Shown: positions 12,193 to 46,075 of the stretch, piece after piece
Position numbering within the stretch: the stretch's first letter is position 1
How the letters are laid out: each line of letters starts with the position of its first letter
From: Desulfarculaceae bacterium
Lineage (GTDB): Bacteria > Desulfobacterota > Desulfarculia > Desulfarculales > Desulfarculaceae
Assembly (NCBI GenBank): GCA_020444545.1
Contig: JAHLKT010000006.1
Location: 1-64,000 of the forward strand
Length of the DNA stretch: 64,000 bases
Direction of reading: 5' to 3'
Made by a program: the position numbers and the translations under genes
The notes under the pieces: generated by a model
What the model saw: the letters and a program-made list of their open reading frames with translations, nothing else
Told to the model about the DNA's origin: nothing
Database searches by the model: none

Positions 12193-13821
12193 TCAGAGGG
12201 TATAGAGGACCACCAGGCACCTAGTGGGCTCACTACTCTGGCTCTTCAGCTTGTGGGGTATATCAGAATTAAAGTGAATTGACTCACCGGCTTTGAGTTG
12301 CTGCACTTTTGAGCCCAGGGTGAACTCCAGTTCCCCCTCCATCACAAAGATGAATTCCTCACCCTCATGCTTGTAGGCCACGGGTTTGTGGGTCAAGTGA
12401 GGTTCGATGGTGATCATGAAGGCGCGCAGGTGACTGTTTTCGGCTTCCGGGGTCAGGGTGGTGTAATGATAGCTCTGGGTGCGCTGGCGGTAGGCCTTGG
12501 CGCGGCGATCGGTGATGGCGGCCTGCTCCTCGCTGTTGAGGAAAGTGCCCGGGTCCACCTCCATGACCTTGGCCATGCTGAGGATAAAGGCAACCGGCGG
12601 CGATAGGCGCTCTTCCTCGACCTGAGCGATGAAATCGGGGTCCTGGCCGGTTTTTCCCGCCAACTCGCTTTGGGTCCAATTGCGGGCGGCGCGGAACTGA
12701 GCCACGATCGCGCCGAACCCGCTGGGGGACATGTCCTCCTCCCCACCGATGGTGCCGGCTGAATCGGCCAGGCGGCGCAGAACCACCTGCTTGGCTTTCT
12801 GGGTCAACGCGGGTAAAAAAGTTTCAGCATCCGCCACGATGCCAATATCCGCCAAGTTGAAAATAGGGGCCGCGGCATCGCGGTTGATGGCCACGATGGT
12901 GTCGGCCTCCATTATGCCGGCCGTGTATTGCACGGCTCCAGAGGTGCCCACTGTAATCAAAAGCTTGGGCCGCACGGTTTTACCGGTCTGGCCGATGAGC
13001 CGCCCTTCCTCCACCCAGTGGTGCAGCACCGGCGGACGCGTGGCCCCCACCTCGGCGCCCAAGGCGGCGGCCAGATCACGAACTCGCCCGAATCCCCTGA
13101 TGTCGCCGAGGCCGGCGCCGCCCACCACCACGGTTTCGGCATCTTCAAGACGCCTGGTTTGCCGGGGCTCCCTGGTGCGCCGCTTCAATTGCAGCCCCTG
13201 GGAAGGCTCCACATGCTCCGGTTCGATCCACCCAATGGGCGCCTCTGTTTTGGGCTCGGTCTGGGCCGCTTCGGGGGCCCCCTGCGGCCGGACCGTGGCA
13301 AAGGCCAGGGGCCACCCCGGGGCCAGGGTGATATCGGCTAAAATCTCCCCTCCCCAGGCGGGACAACGGCCAGCCACCTGGCCGTCTTTCAGGAAGAGCT
13401 CCTCGCAATCCGCGATGAGCCCGGCCTGACAGCGCTGGGCGCCGAAAGCGGCAATCTCGCGGCCAAAGTCGTTGAGGCTGAACAGCACCACCCAGGGTTT
13501 ACGGGCCTGAACAAAATCCGCCAAAACGCGGGCGAAAATATCGCTGCGCGGGACGCCGAGCCGCGAATGCGCCAAGCAGAAAACTTCATGAGCGCCACCT
13601 GCTGCCGCCTGTTGGGCGGCTTGGGCCATGGGGACGCATTCGGCAAGGTCCATATCCTGGTTCTGTAAGCCATCGGGGTCCGGGGCGCCCATTAAAACCA
13701 TGGCCACCGGGGCTCCCGCCTCCTGGGCCAGGGGCAGCGCCTTGGCCAACACCTTGAGACTATCCCGCCAGAGGCGCTTGGTGCGCAAATCGCCGCAAAC
13801 CCATATGTAATTAGACTTCAT
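12193..13821 (-). CDS. EtfA fused to XRE helix-turn-helix and cupin domains
   Basis: A 542-residue three-part protein. Residues 1-345 are a complete ETF alpha subunit: N-terminal Rossmann-like domain, then the FAD domain with GAGLGDIRGF (235-244), GATRPP (259-264), GQTGKTV (277-283), VGTSGAVQYTAG (291-302) and AINRDAAAPIF (311-321). Residues 368-428 form an XRE-type helix-turn-helix (NWTQSELAGKTGQDPDFIAQ is the core). Residues 465-542 are a cupin with H485, E489 and H523 in metal-site positions. ETF alpha is normally about 320 residues and never needs a DNA-binding tail. The start overlaps the etfB stop (ATGA), and an acyl-CoA dehydrogenase lies upstream, so it should be a working ETF that might also act on DNA. 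Whether it does is inference. Confidence 0.9.
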   Translation of the reverse strand: MKSNYIWVCGDLRTKRLWRDSLKVLAKALPLAQEAGAPVAMVLMGAPDPDGLQNQDMDLAECVPMAQAAQQAAAGGAHEVFCLAHSRLGVPRSDIFARVLADFVQARKPWVVLFSLNDFGREIAAFGAQRCQAGLIADCEELFLKDGQVAGRCPAWGGEILADITLAPGWPLAFATVRPQGAPEAAQTEPKTEAPIGWIEPEHVEPSQGLQLKRRTREPRQTRRLEDAETVVVGGAGLGDIRGFGRVRDLAAALGAEVGATRPPVLHHWVEEGRLIGQTGKTVRPKLLITVGTSGAVQYTAGIMEADTIVAINRDAAAPIFNLADIGIVADAETFLPALTQKAKQVVLRRLADSAGTIGGEEDMSPSGFGAIVAQFRAARNWTQSELAGKTGQDPDFIAQVEEERLSPPVAFILSMAKVMEVDPGTFLNSEEQAAITDRRAKAYRQRTQSYHYTTLTPEAENSHLRAFMITIEPHLTHKPVAYKHEGEEFIFVMEGELEFTLGSKVQQLKAGESIHFNSDIPHKLKSQSSEPTRCLVVLYTL

Positions 13822-14597
13822 GATCCGATTTTACCTGCAAGGGTAAGCATCTCAAGCAACGCTTCCGCCTGCTCCCGAGGGTTGCCTTCAATAATTCTAC
13901 AGCTGCGGTCATGGGGTATTTTTTTCAGGTCGGCCACGCGGGTGGGTGAGCCGGTCAGCCCCACTTGTTCAGCCGTCAGGCCCAAATCAGCCACGTTCCA
14001 TTGCCGCGGCTTGGGCTGATCATAAACCTGGGACAGGCCCACCAGGCTCACGGGTCTGGGAATAAAAGCCCGGGGATCCATGGCAAGCGCCGCCGGAGTC
14101 TGAACCTGCCAGACCTCCTCCCAGGTATCGACGGCCCTGTGAACCTCCCAGCCACCACCCTGCAATTCCATCTTTTTGACGCCGCCCAAAAAAGGCAGGT
14201 CCAGCAGACTGGCGGTCTGAGGTCCGACCTGTCCGGTGTCGCTATCAGCGGTGCGGGTGCCGAAGAAAATAAAATCAAAAGCCCCGATTTTTTGCACCGC
14301 TTGGGCCAGCACCTTGGCGGTGACCAGAGTGTCCGACCCCGCCAGGGCCCGATCGCTGACCAGCACGGCCTCATCGGCCCCCATGGCCTGGGCTTCGGCC
14401 AGGGCCTCGGCACTGACCTCGGGCCCCATGGACAGCGCGATCACCGATGCGTTCATCGTGTCCTTGAGGCGGATGGCCGCCTCCAGGGCCGGACGGTCGA
14501 ATGGATTGAGCTCGCTGTTGCCCACGGCGCGCTGGGGCCCTCCGAGGTGGGAGGCCTTAAGGACCGATTTGATACAAACAATGATGCGAAGGGACAT
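13818..14597 (-). CDS. etfB: Electron transfer flavoprotein beta subunit
   Basis: A 259-residue ETF beta subunit that, with the alpha subunit, carries electrons from acyl-CoA dehydrogenases. Seen: IIVCIKSVL start, NPFDRPALEAAIRLKD (NP-D-ALE signature), ALSMGPEVSAEALAEAQAMG adenine-binding region, and GTRTADSDTGQVGP, the family's conserved GxxxxDxDTGQxGP loop. GGGAGGAATC precedes ATG 14597. It overlaps the alpha-fusion start by four bases and follows the dehydrogenase by 22 bases, so all three form one operon. Confidence 0.95.
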   Translation of the reverse strand: MSLRIIVCIKSVLKASHLGGPQRAVGNSELNPFDRPALEAAIRLKDTMNASVIALSMGPEVSAEALAEAQAMGADEAVLVSDRALAGSDTLVTAKVLAQAVQKIGAFDFIFFGTRTADSDTGQVGPQTASLLDLPFLGGVKKMELQGGGWEVHRAVDTWEEVWQVQTPAALAMDPRAFIPRPVSLVGLSQVYDQPKPRQWNVADLGLTAEQVGLTGSPTRVADLKKIPHDRSCRIIEGNPREQAEALLEMLTLAGKIGS

Positions 14598-14619: not shown

Positions 14620-15771
14620 CTACAGGGTTTCCCGCAGCGCCTCGCGCGCGATCACCATGCGATGAACCTCTGAAGTTCCTTCATAGATGCGGGTTACCCT
14701 TGCATCGCGATAATAGCGCTCCACGGCATAGGCTTTGGAGTAGCCGTAACCGCCATGGATCTGCAAGGCCAGATCAGTGACTTTGCCGGCCGCTTCCGAG
14801 GCAAAAAGCTTGGCCTGAGCCGCGGCTTTGGTGACCGGCTGATTAGCATCTTTAATCCTGGCCGCGCGGTAAACCATCATGCGGGCCGCGTCCACTTGAG
14901 TGGCCATATCGGCTATCATCGTCTGAATCATCTGATGGTTCCCCAGGGGAACCCTGAACTGCTGCCGCTGGTTGGCATAGCGCACCCCTTCCTCCAGGGC
15001 GGCCTGGGCGATGCCCAGGGCCTGGGCCGCGATGCCGATGCGTCCGGTGTCCAAGGCCGCGAGACCGATCCGCAGACCCATGCCCGCCTTCCCCAACAGA
15101 TTAGCTTTGGGAAGGTGGCAGTCGTAAAGGCGGATGGAGGTCACCGGGTTGGCCCGCATGCCGCACAGGTCTTCCAGGTCCCCCACCACGAATCCGGGGG
15201 TGCCTCTTTCGGCCACCACCACGCTGACCTCTTTACGGCCGCCCCCCTGGCCGGTGTTGCAAAAAATCAGGCAAATATCGGCAATGCCTCCGTTGGTGAC
15301 AAACACCTTGTTGGCGTTGACCACCCAATCGTCGCCATCAGCCAGGGCGGTGGCGATGATCCCGCTGGCGTCGGAACCGGCATTTGGCTCCGTCAGGCAG
15401 AAGGCGCCGATTTTTTCACCTTTTGCCAAGGCCGGCACCCAGCGTTGATGCTGCTCGGGAGAGCCGAAGGCCACAATGGGATACAGGGCGACGCTGTTGT
15501 GCACGCTCAGACACAATCCAATGGCGGCGCTGACCCGTGAGACCTCTTCGATGGTAATGGCATAGCTGACCGTATCCAGCCCGGCGCCGCCCAGCTCCCG
15601 GGGGGCTTGAATGCCGAAATAACCCAGAGGCCCCATTTTCTCGGCCACTTCCCAAGGGAAACGCGCCTCCTGATCGATTTGAGCGGCTATGGGGCGCAGT
15701 TCCTTTTCACAAAAATCGCGGACACTGCGCCGCACTATGCGGTGTTTGTCGGTCAAAATTGGATCATGCAT
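14620..15771 (-). CDS. Acyl-CoA dehydrogenase
   Basis: A 383-residue FAD enzyme that introduces an alpha,beta double bond in an acyl-CoA and passes electrons to ETF. FCLTEPNAGSDASG is the FAD/substrate loop, LQIHGGYGYSKAYAVER the conserved C-terminal region, and the catalytic base is Glu364 in RIYEGTSEVHR, the position used by short/medium-chain enzymes. Length is standard. It is the first gene of the operon acd-etfB-etfA fusion; the start lies next to a broken integrase, so the promoter may lie within integration debris. Chain length and branching of the substrate are unknown. Confidence 0.95.
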   Translation of the reverse strand: MHDPILTDKHRIVRRSVRDFCEKELRPIAAQIDQEARFPWEVAEKMGPLGYFGIQAPRELGGAGLDTVSYAITIEEVSRVSAAIGLCLSVHNSVALYPIVAFGSPEQHQRWVPALAKGEKIGAFCLTEPNAGSDASGIIATALADGDDWVVNANKVFVTNGGIADICLIFCNTGQGGGRKEVSVVVAERGTPGFVVGDLEDLCGMRANPVTSIRLYDCHLPKANLLGKAGMGLRIGLAALDTGRIGIAAQALGIAQAALEEGVRYANQRQQFRVPLGNHQMIQTMIADMATQVDAARMMVYRAARIKDANQPVTKAAAQAKLFASEAAGKVTDLALQIHGGYGYSKAYAVERYYRDARVTRIYEGTSEVHRMVIAREALRETL

Positions 15772-15849
15772 GCAACATACCTATGCATCGGGCCTGAGAA
15801 CAGGCGCGAACTTGAGAGAATAAGGCGTTACGCTCACTATAGAGATAAA

Positions 15850-16181
15850 CCAGATGATCGCCTGCCCTGCCAGGTGAAAATGTCGTGCGCCCTGGCGGGG
15901 ACTCTGCGTGCCTGGCGCCGGATTCAAGGACCGGGCAATATGTATGTCTTCCCGCAGGAGGACAAGGCGGCGTTGCACCATGATGTGTGGGTGCGCAAGA
16001 ACCTGGCGGCCGCCTGCCGGCGCGCCGACGTCAGCTACCGCCCCCAGGTTGCCTCCGTCACTACCGGGCGTCCAAATGGGCCGACGAGGGCCGCTCCTTG
16101 ACCTGGATCCAGAACCGCCTGGGCCATTCCAAGCCCACCACCACGGACACTTATCTGCACGAGCTGGGCGTGAATGTTTAG
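15850..16181 (+). pseudogene. Tyrosine integrase, C-terminal remnant (frameshifted)
   Basis: Two frames together give the end of a phage-type tyrosine recombinase. The first frame reads MYVFPQEDKAALHHDVWVRK; after a frameshift near 16050 the second gives RHYRASKW (box II His), then SLTWIQNRLGHSKPTTTDTY with the box II GH and the nucleophilic Tyr, and ends LHELGVNV-stop. The N-terminal two thirds are missing. It abuts a partial tRNA-Gly copy (16253-16297), the position an integrase gene occupies next to its attachment site. The last nine codons are duplicated at 44471. Confidence 0.8.
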
Positions 16182-16297
16182 TTGCTTCCCACTATCTCCC
16201 GCTGAAAAAATGAAAGGGGGTTAGCCTCTGAGGCCAACCCCCCGAATAAACTTGGAGCGGGAGACGGGATTCGAACCCGCGACCCTCAGCTTGGAAG
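16155..16297. repeat. Left 143-bp direct repeat (att-like)
   Basis: Matches 44471-44613 at constant offset (28,316 bases) with only a handful of substitutions. In order it holds the last integrase codons (LHELGVNV-stop), a terminator hairpin (16215-16243) and the 3' 45 bases of tRNA-Gly. It starts immediately after the integrase Tyr codon and stops in the tRNA anticodon loop. Direct repeats that end in a tRNA 3' half are the classical product of tyrosine-recombinase integration. Confidence 0.85.
16253..16297 (-). pseudogene. tRNA-Gly(TCC) 3' half, attachment-site copy
   Basis: Identical to the 3' 45 bases of the intact tRNA-Gly at 44569-44646, from the anticodon loop (CTTCCAA) through the T arm, acceptor strand and encoded CCA. 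Beyond 16297 the match is lost, so the D arm and 5' acceptor strand are missing and no functional tRNA can be made. Interpreted as an att site created by island integration. Confidence 0.88.
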
Positions 16298-16514: not shown

Positions 16515-16951
16515 AGAGCGTAGCCAAAATCAACCTGAGCCTCGCCCGGCCGATGAATCAGGGGCATGAGCACCTCGCGGTTCACCTGTTTGATCTCCTT
16601 GACCGCCTGCTTCACCTAGATGTAATTGGCCTGGTATCCCACCTCCTTCAGGCGACGGTAGATTCGCGTGGCTGTGTGGCGCTGCTTTTTGGGAACCGAC
16701 TTGCCGTCTTGTATGGTCTGGACGGTCGTCTCAAGGTAGGGGCCCAGCTTGGGCTTGGGACGGGAGGATGCCATCCGGTATTCGGGCGGTTCCGATTGGT
16801 CCACCAGTCCATTCCCTTGTACACCCTCTCCATGCCTCCCATAAAAATTCTCCAAATACCGAAGGACACTCCATGAGGGTGTCATGTTTTTCAAGCGCCA
16901 TTTACATTTTTGATGTCGCCGGCGGTACATTGATAGCCAGCCAGACAACAA
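16515..16951 (-). pseudogene. istA: IS21-family transposase IstA, truncated and interrupted
   Basis: On the minus strand the frame contains RPKPKLGPYLET, then VPKKQRHTATRIYRRLKEVG, an in-frame TAG stop near 16617, and after it VKQAVKEIKQVNREVLMPLI and GEAQVDFGYA. These are the conserved mid-region of IS21 IstA, including the first catalytic Asp of the DDE triad (QVDFG). Both ends are missing: the N-terminus is unrecognisable before the EPPEYRM segment and the C-terminus is cut at 16515 by a repeat. No IstB is present. The remaining spacer to 17206 is AT-rich from 16900 to 17050 and holds no gene I can support. Confidence 0.75.
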
Positions 16952-44468: not shown

Positions 44469-44530
44469 TGCTGCACGAGCTGGGCGCGTATGTTTAGTTG
44501 CTTCCCACGATCTCCCGCTGAAAAAATGAA

Positions 44531-44559
44531 GGGGGGTTAGCCTCTGAGGCCAACCCCCC
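44531..44559 (-). terminator. tRNA-Gly terminator
   Basis: GGGGGGTT-GCCTC / GAGGC-AACCCCCC hairpin followed on the minus strand by TTCATTTTTT, ten bases beyond the tRNA 3' end. The copy at 16215-16243 differs by one base. Confidence 0.75.
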
Positions 44560-44568
44560 GAATAAACT

Positions 44569-46075
<1,507 letters not shown>

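Follow-up and report, generated by a model that had tools for sequence, protein, structure and literature searches.

We describe a bacterial protein in which a complete alpha subunit of an electron-transfer flavoprotein (ETF), EtfA, continues in the same reading frame into an XRE helix-turn-helix (HTH) domain and a cupin. Its gene lies in a 64,000-nucleotide stretch of DNA from a Desulfarculaceae bacterium (contig JAHLKT010000006.1, positions 1 to 64,000; the whole stretch is hereafter called the window), where it occupies the minus strand, 13821 to 12193, as a single 542-codon frame with an ATG start; the plus strand of 12193-13821 is riddled with stop codons. The EtfA-XRE-cupin fusion is genuine and conserved, and with EtfB and acd, which encodes an acyl-coenzyme A (acyl-CoA) dehydrogenase, it makes up a self-contained cassette that occurs in many sulfate-reducing bacteria. 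ETFs connect acyl-CoA oxidation with energy conservation in anaerobes, and little is known of how these organisms match beta-oxidation to their redox state. The XRE-cupin domain pair is normally a small-molecule-sensing gene switch in bacteria; an ETF subunit with such a built-in sensor would physically link electron flow to gene or enzyme control.

Domains of the fusion and its flavin site

The features of the cassette are as follows.

12193..13821, minus strand: etfA::xre-cupin fusion, 542 aa, ATGA overlap with etfB
13156..13821, minus strand: EtfA domain I, residues 1-222 (Pfam ETF 19-194; Foldseek 5ol2, 4kpu, 7koe)
12796..13155, minus strand: EtfA domain II, binding flavin adenine dinucleotide (FAD), residues 223-342 (Pfam ETF_alpha 225-303; invariant FAD-site residues)
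12718..12795, minus strand: EtfA-HTH linker, residues 343-368 (a long helix ends here and gives way to a disordered stretch; predicted local distance difference test, pLDDT, <50 at 358-365)
12538..12717, minus strand: XRE HTH, residues 369-428, helix 3 acidic (HTH_31, HTH_3; model helices; charge analysis)
12472..12537, minus strand: connecting helix, residues 429-450 (model helix 430-448)
12196..12471, minus strand: cupin, residues 451-542, with putative metal triad H485, E489, H523 (Cupin_2; conservation)
13818..14597, minus strand: etfB, ETF beta subunit, 259 aa (Pfam ETF)
14620..15771, minus strand: acd, acyl-CoA dehydrogenase, first gene of the operon, 383 aa (Pfam Acyl-CoA_dh_N/M/1)
15772..15860, minus strand: operon leader and presumed promoter region, no shared operator identified

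A preliminary description of this DNA had claimed one uninterrupted 542-codon EtfA/XRE/cupin frame without giving its strand, coupled to etfB by an ATGA overlap and placed in an acyl-CoA dehydrogenase operon. All three statements are borne out, with etfB directly upstream on the minus strand and acd upstream of both, and its limits for the FAD motifs (235-321), HTH (368-428) and cupin (465-542) agree with Pfam to within a few residues. The Pfam matches, all of which exceed the curated cut-offs, are ETF at 19-194, the FAD-binding ETF_alpha at 225-303 (62.5 and 91 bits, respectively), HTH_31 at 369-424, HTH_3 at 374-425 and Cupin_2 at 469-538. The C-terminal part thus has the composition of an XRE-cupin, an XRE HTH followed by a single cupin, and a Foldseek search with the module gave 1y9q as the best match.

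An AlphaFold model built from 29 homologues (mean pLDDT 80.5) contains a disordered break at 358-365 between EtfA and the HTH, whose predicted helices span 369-379, 384-391, 395-402, 410-419 and 424-427; the relative placement of the domains is not fixed by this model because its predicted template modelling score is only about 0.5. In Foldseek searches the EtfA part best matched the bifurcating-type ETFs 5ol2, 4kpu and 7koe, and the C-terminal part matched the XRE-cupin regulator 1y9q and HppE, an outcome that was the same when the module was modelled separately.

The FAD site of EtfA is conserved, with R262, G277-QTG-280, Q298, D315, I320-F321 and D325 invariant among 29 aligned sequences. 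The exception is the usual Gln-His, which is replaced by Gln-Tyr at residues 298-299 (window 12922-12927, minus strand) in all aligned fusions, with Y299 invariant; this replacement may shift the flavin potential. EtfB and the fusion probably form an ETF that serves the co-encoded dehydrogenase. In a sequence search of solved structures, the closest relatives of EtfB were CarD, LctB and C. difficile EtfB, all from bifurcating or confurcating complexes, and those of EtfA were EtfABCX, C. difficile EtfA and CarE. In addition, the EtfB segment ADSDTGQVGPQ aligns with AIDGDTAQVGSQ of CarD, a comparison of the DxDTxQVGP-type second-FAD loop made by sequence only, and we do not claim electron bifurcation for the encoded ETF. 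In NCBIfam, the best match of acd is AcrC acryloyl-CoA reductase (432.8 bits, under the 640-bit cut-off), that of the EtfA part is AcrA, far under the equivalog cut-off, and AcrB ranks second for etfB behind the general EtfB model.

Distribution, surroundings and origin of the cassette

Absence of the fusion from related genomes would have refuted the preliminary description. This is not the case: with the whole fusion protein as query against 84,980 species genomes, we found 30 further records that hold the whole or nearly whole fusion in one frame (48-96% identity) and one additional fragment at a contig end, and the fusion is present in 21 of 395 genomes sampled from the phylum, covering 8 families and 37-96% identity. 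Four of the carriers are cultured isolates, namely Desulfosarcina widdelii PP31, D. alkanivorans PL12, D. cetonica JCM 12296 and Desulfatitalea alkaliphila M08but, and the fusions of PP31 and PL12 are located on complete chromosomes. A false joining of two genes during sequencing or assembly, for which we found nothing in favour, is ruled out for practical purposes by the same unbroken frame in independent assemblies, including these complete genomes of cultured strains. Inside the clade, beside Desulfobacterota rows, there are also two records with Nitrospirota and Fibrobacterota labels; they may be mislabelled or misbinned, and we draw no inference from them.

The same-strand order acd-etfB-fusion is kept in nearly all loci with enough sequence, and acd is 65-82% identical to its counterparts in most orthologous operons and 55-59% in the most distant. 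The flanks change: outside the three cassette genes, each neighbouring gene family is common to at most 6 of about 35 loci, and at a locus whose fusion is 96% identical not one of the window's flanking genes that were tested recurs. A constant cassette with changing flanks is as expected for a local regulator travelling with its target. In two genomes of one family (f34), genes for a thiolase and a 3-hydroxyacyl-CoA dehydrogenase lie upstream of acd, forming a beta-oxidation operon. Among 8 genomes of the window's genus, the cassette was found only in the window genome and in G172 and, as a contig-end fragment, in G397, and in the EtfA tree the copy of this genus is nested with Desulfatitalea of another family (support 100/100). 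This patchy presence together with the nesting is most simply explained by horizontal transfer, and the cassette looks portable and partly horizontally spread.

The window has further features of note. Positions 16155-16297 and 44471-44613 are a 143-bp direct repeat, 97% identical, which contains the 3' end of tRNA-Gly(TCC) and flanks acyl-CoA and TRAP-transporter genes over about 28 kb. With a C-terminal remnant of a phage integrase (16038-16178) at its left end, the region has the look of a catabolic island that integrated at tRNA-Gly. A sequence at 16616-16951 (minus strand) weakly resembles an IS21-family transposase and is probably another remnant.

The EtfA tree has a supported group (99/92) made up of 45 fused rows and a single row without the fusion. 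This lone unfused EtfA, at locus L111 (7047-8105), stops at 352 aa and has no XRE-cupin, which is best read as secondary loss, and it serves as a natural control for the function of the module. Three divergent fused rows of family f3 branch outside some unfused EtfA sequences in this tree, hinting at two independent fusions. We set this possibility aside, given that a single clade of all fused rows and L111 is not rejected by the approximately unbiased test (p = 0.40) and that the XRE-cupin tree places every fused row to the same side of a branch whose support is modest (66/79). A single fusion followed by a single later loss is the simplest reading of the trees, not a proven one.

Possible roles of the XRE-cupin module

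By analogy with stand-alone XRE-cupins and PutA, we tentatively propose that the protein is a PutA-like ETF subunit whose attached XRE-cupin would exert local control over the cassette, triggered by a pathway ligand or by the state of the flavin or ETF. We favour this reading because XRE-cupins are known as local repressors, because the genomics is that of a single portable cassette and because PutA provides a precedent. In Pseudomonas, XRE-cupins repress their own neighbouring genes and move with them by horizontal gene transfer (PMC7901475), and PutA is a flavoenzyme that doubles as an autogenous repressor (PMC5293562). The C-terminal module of the fusion would accordingly act as a ligand-sensing regulator of its own cassette. 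When substrate is scarce, or in one particular state of the flavin or cupin site, a pair of XRE domains would occupy a site near the cassette, and an acyl-CoA or organic-acid ligand at the metal site of the cupin would release it. Alternatively, release could be signalled by engagement and reduction of the FAD domain of EtfA.

Mean column identity is 0.56 in domain I, 0.81 in the FAD domain, 0.46 in the linker, 0.70 in the HTH and 0.82 in the cupin, whose core (0.86) is the best-conserved segment of the fusion, while the linker is among the least conserved. H485, E488 and E489 are invariant, H523 is found in 97% of the sequences, with a row whose frame ends early as the sole exception, and the equivalent His, Glu-Glu and His are still invariant once stand-alone XRE-cupin relatives are added. 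This conservation and the kept metal residues argue for strong selection on the cupin, which probably binds a metal.

The stand-alone relatives of the module suggest what it may sense. The closest in the same genome (40%) belongs to an operon for enoyl-CoA hydratase, MeaB, the XRE-cupin and an acyl-CoA dehydrogenase, and locus L120 is arranged similarly. Two more XRE-cupins of the window's genome lie behind a 2-oxoacid:ferredoxin oxidoreductase operon and ahead of an AMP-forming ligase gene; at locus L150 (4184-7300), a related XRE-cupin with an acidic helix comes after the oxidoreductase subunit genes. Elsewhere, 24 of 26 stand-alone relatives, mostly from Bacteroidales, adjoin a gene for an AMP-forming acyl-CoA ligase, nearly always on the same strand and directly upstream. 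The XRE-cupin subfamily is thus regularly found with enzymes producing or consuming acyl-CoA, an association of gene neighbourhoods from which an acyl-CoA ligand may be surmised. The preliminary description had suggested that the flavoprotein senses its redox or acyl-CoA load and changes transcription, or that its cupin ligand gates electron transfer; the link to acyl-CoA is strengthened by these neighbours, and both mechanisms are still candidates. Acidic-helix XRE-cupin genes of Bacteroidales and Treponema (loci L036-L061) were almost always seen beside AMP-forming acyl-CoA ligase genes, a pairing for which our literature search found no description. The Bacteroidales proteins resemble transcription factors, yet their recognition helix is atypical and acidic.

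Several results weigh against regulation through DNA. The module retains a complete XRE fold, in which R377, E402 and P408 are invariant, but helix 3 is strongly acidic. The net charge of the 14-residue recognition segment averages -3.3 across 46 fusions, which span -5 to -1; the MeaB-linked sisters average -2.8, and the other stand-alone relatives, including those linked to AMP-forming ligases, -2.6. By comparison, the mean is +0.7 for 12 further HTH_3 proteins from the window's genome, and E. coli PuuR and SutR have -1 and 0. The significance of the difference between the fusions and the other HTH_3 proteins (Mann-Whitney p 5e-8) is overstated because the fusions are related to each other. 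The contrast within one genome is the safer statement: its four acyl-CoA-associated XRE-cupins, including the fusion, have charges of -3 to -5 and its remaining HTH_3 proteins -2 to +3. Moreover, the presumed base-contact positions are mostly Pro and Glu/Asp, and an ETF subunit, as part of an enzyme, should be abundant, which is unusual for a repressor.

A palindrome-constrained Gibbs search of 34 upstream regions likewise found no shared palindrome clearly above shuffled controls (8.0 bits against 7.1-7.7 at width 14; 8.9 bits, the best of three runs, against 7.7-8.0 at width 18). The AT-rich motif that this search returned was rejected as an operator, its positions being scattered and its score near that of the shuffles. 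The missing dyad speaks against a conserved operator upstream of acd but is not proof, as an operator could lie elsewhere or be species-specific. DNA binding in the upstream region thus finds no support in the acidic recognition helix or in the upstream sequences.

The cassette appears to have its own promoter upstream of acd, as promoter-like pairs are shared within two groups of loci: five Desulfatitalea-type loci share TTTACA-17-TAAnGT about 50 nt ahead of the start, and five loci of the family f9 type share a TTGAAA-17-TATGAT-like pair. Such -35/-10-like pairs with 17-nt spacing lie 31-73 nt ahead of acd in relatives, and the window itself is without the pattern. Only these clade-wise footprints were counted as meaningful, the sigma-70 score over all upstream regions (8.2) being no better than in shuffles (7.9). 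In one clade of three loci (L013, L019 and L111), conserved inverted repeats about 40-50 nt ahead of acd, one of them terminator-like with a T run, could mark either an attenuator in the leader or the place where a transcript from upstream ends. Both hairpins are confined to this clade, so a structured leader was rejected as a general feature, and no Rfam family matched loci L013 and L111.

These observations also fit a module that does not bind DNA, which we consider somewhat less probable than the PutA-like reading. The HTH would then be a domain for protein-protein contact or dimerisation and the cupin a ligand or metal sensor carried on the mobile FAD domain II, so that the module gates electron transfer among EtfB, the dehydrogenase and the next acceptor, or assembles their complex; the stand-alone relatives would likewise serve acyl-CoA enzymes as partners or regulators. 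The acidic helix 3 common to the fusion, its MeaB-linked sister and the AMP-ligase-linked relatives is consistent with this, as are the charge contrast within one genome between XRE-cupins beside acyl-CoA enzymes and the other HTH_3 proteins and the failure to find a conserved operator. In the model, a flexible linker tethers the module directly behind domain II, the part that turns by about 80 degrees when electrons are passed on in the EtfAB/Bcd complex of C. difficile (PMC5691135), and HppE, an enzyme with an HTH-like domain and a cupin, is among the best structural matches. On the other hand, the XRE fold fully retains its structural core residues, an acidic helix 3 is by itself compatible with DNA binding, the homologue at L111 works without the module, and the Pseudomonas XRE-cupins studied experimentally are DNA-binding repressors (PMC7901475). 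The more far-reaching proposal, that the whole acyl-CoA-tied subfamily no longer binds DNA and that the fusion is an on-enzyme sensor riding the mobile FAD domain, where a metabolite at the metal cupin site would gate electron flow from the dehydrogenase, we consider rather unlikely.

It is improbable that etfA merely read through into an adjacent xre-cupin gene, leaving independent halves with no new coupling. Such a neutral origin would suit the disordered, poorly conserved linker and the member of the fused clade (L111) that dropped the module yet kept EtfA, but the fusion has been retained throughout the identity range and families given above with one loss seen, and its cupin is as strongly conserved as the FAD domain. 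We find it similarly improbable that the cupin is an active metalloenzyme domain coupled to the ETF, acting for example on a CoA thioester or organic acid, with the HTH structural as in HppE. The H-x3-E...H triad is kept across fusions and relatives, and the module resembles HppE and other mononuclear iron enzymes, but regulator-like stand-alone XRE-cupins keep the same triad, the best match in both structure and sequence is the HTH_3 transcriptional regulator 1y9q, and HppE-type chemistry uses an oxidant that is scarce in these anaerobes. Whether the module acts on genes, as we tentatively favour, or on electron flow is a question open to testing, since cultured Desulfosarcina and Desulfatitalea strains hold the gene.

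Relation to known systems

We found no description of such an ETF-XRE-cupin fusion among 5.39 million open papers, most subscription-only papers lying outside the search, and the fusion is apparently undescribed; enzyme-regulator fusions as such are known. TrtA of Treponema, considered as a similar case, was rejected as an unrelated small XRE protein.

The module has the HTH-then-cupin order and fold of the stand-alone XRE-cupins ErfA, PsdR, PauR, PuuR and SutR, and, like theirs, its gene adjoins metabolic targets (PMC7901475). It differs from them in forming the C-terminus of an electron-transfer subunit, and its recognition helix is more acidic than those of PuuR and SutR. HppE, an iron epoxidase, likewise has an HTH-like domain followed by a cupin and a fold similar to that of the module, but it is an enzyme of antibiotic biosynthesis, in an unrelated context and without an ETF. 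The nearest solved relatives of both ETF subunits are Bcd-EtfAB, CarCDE, Ldh-EtfAB and EtfABCX, at about 27-33% identity in structural alignments. The operon logic of bifurcating and confurcating EtfAB with an acyl-CoA dehydrogenase is the same, and the XRE-cupin module is absent from all four complexes. Finally, the trifunctional proline utilization flavoenzyme-repressor PutA is not homologous to the fusion but offers a parallel in design, a catabolic flavoprotein covalently linked to a DNA-binding domain that could control its own operon (PMC5293562). In contrast to PutA, the fusion carries its XRE-cupin at the C-terminus, and its flavoprotein would accept electrons from a separate dehydrogenase.
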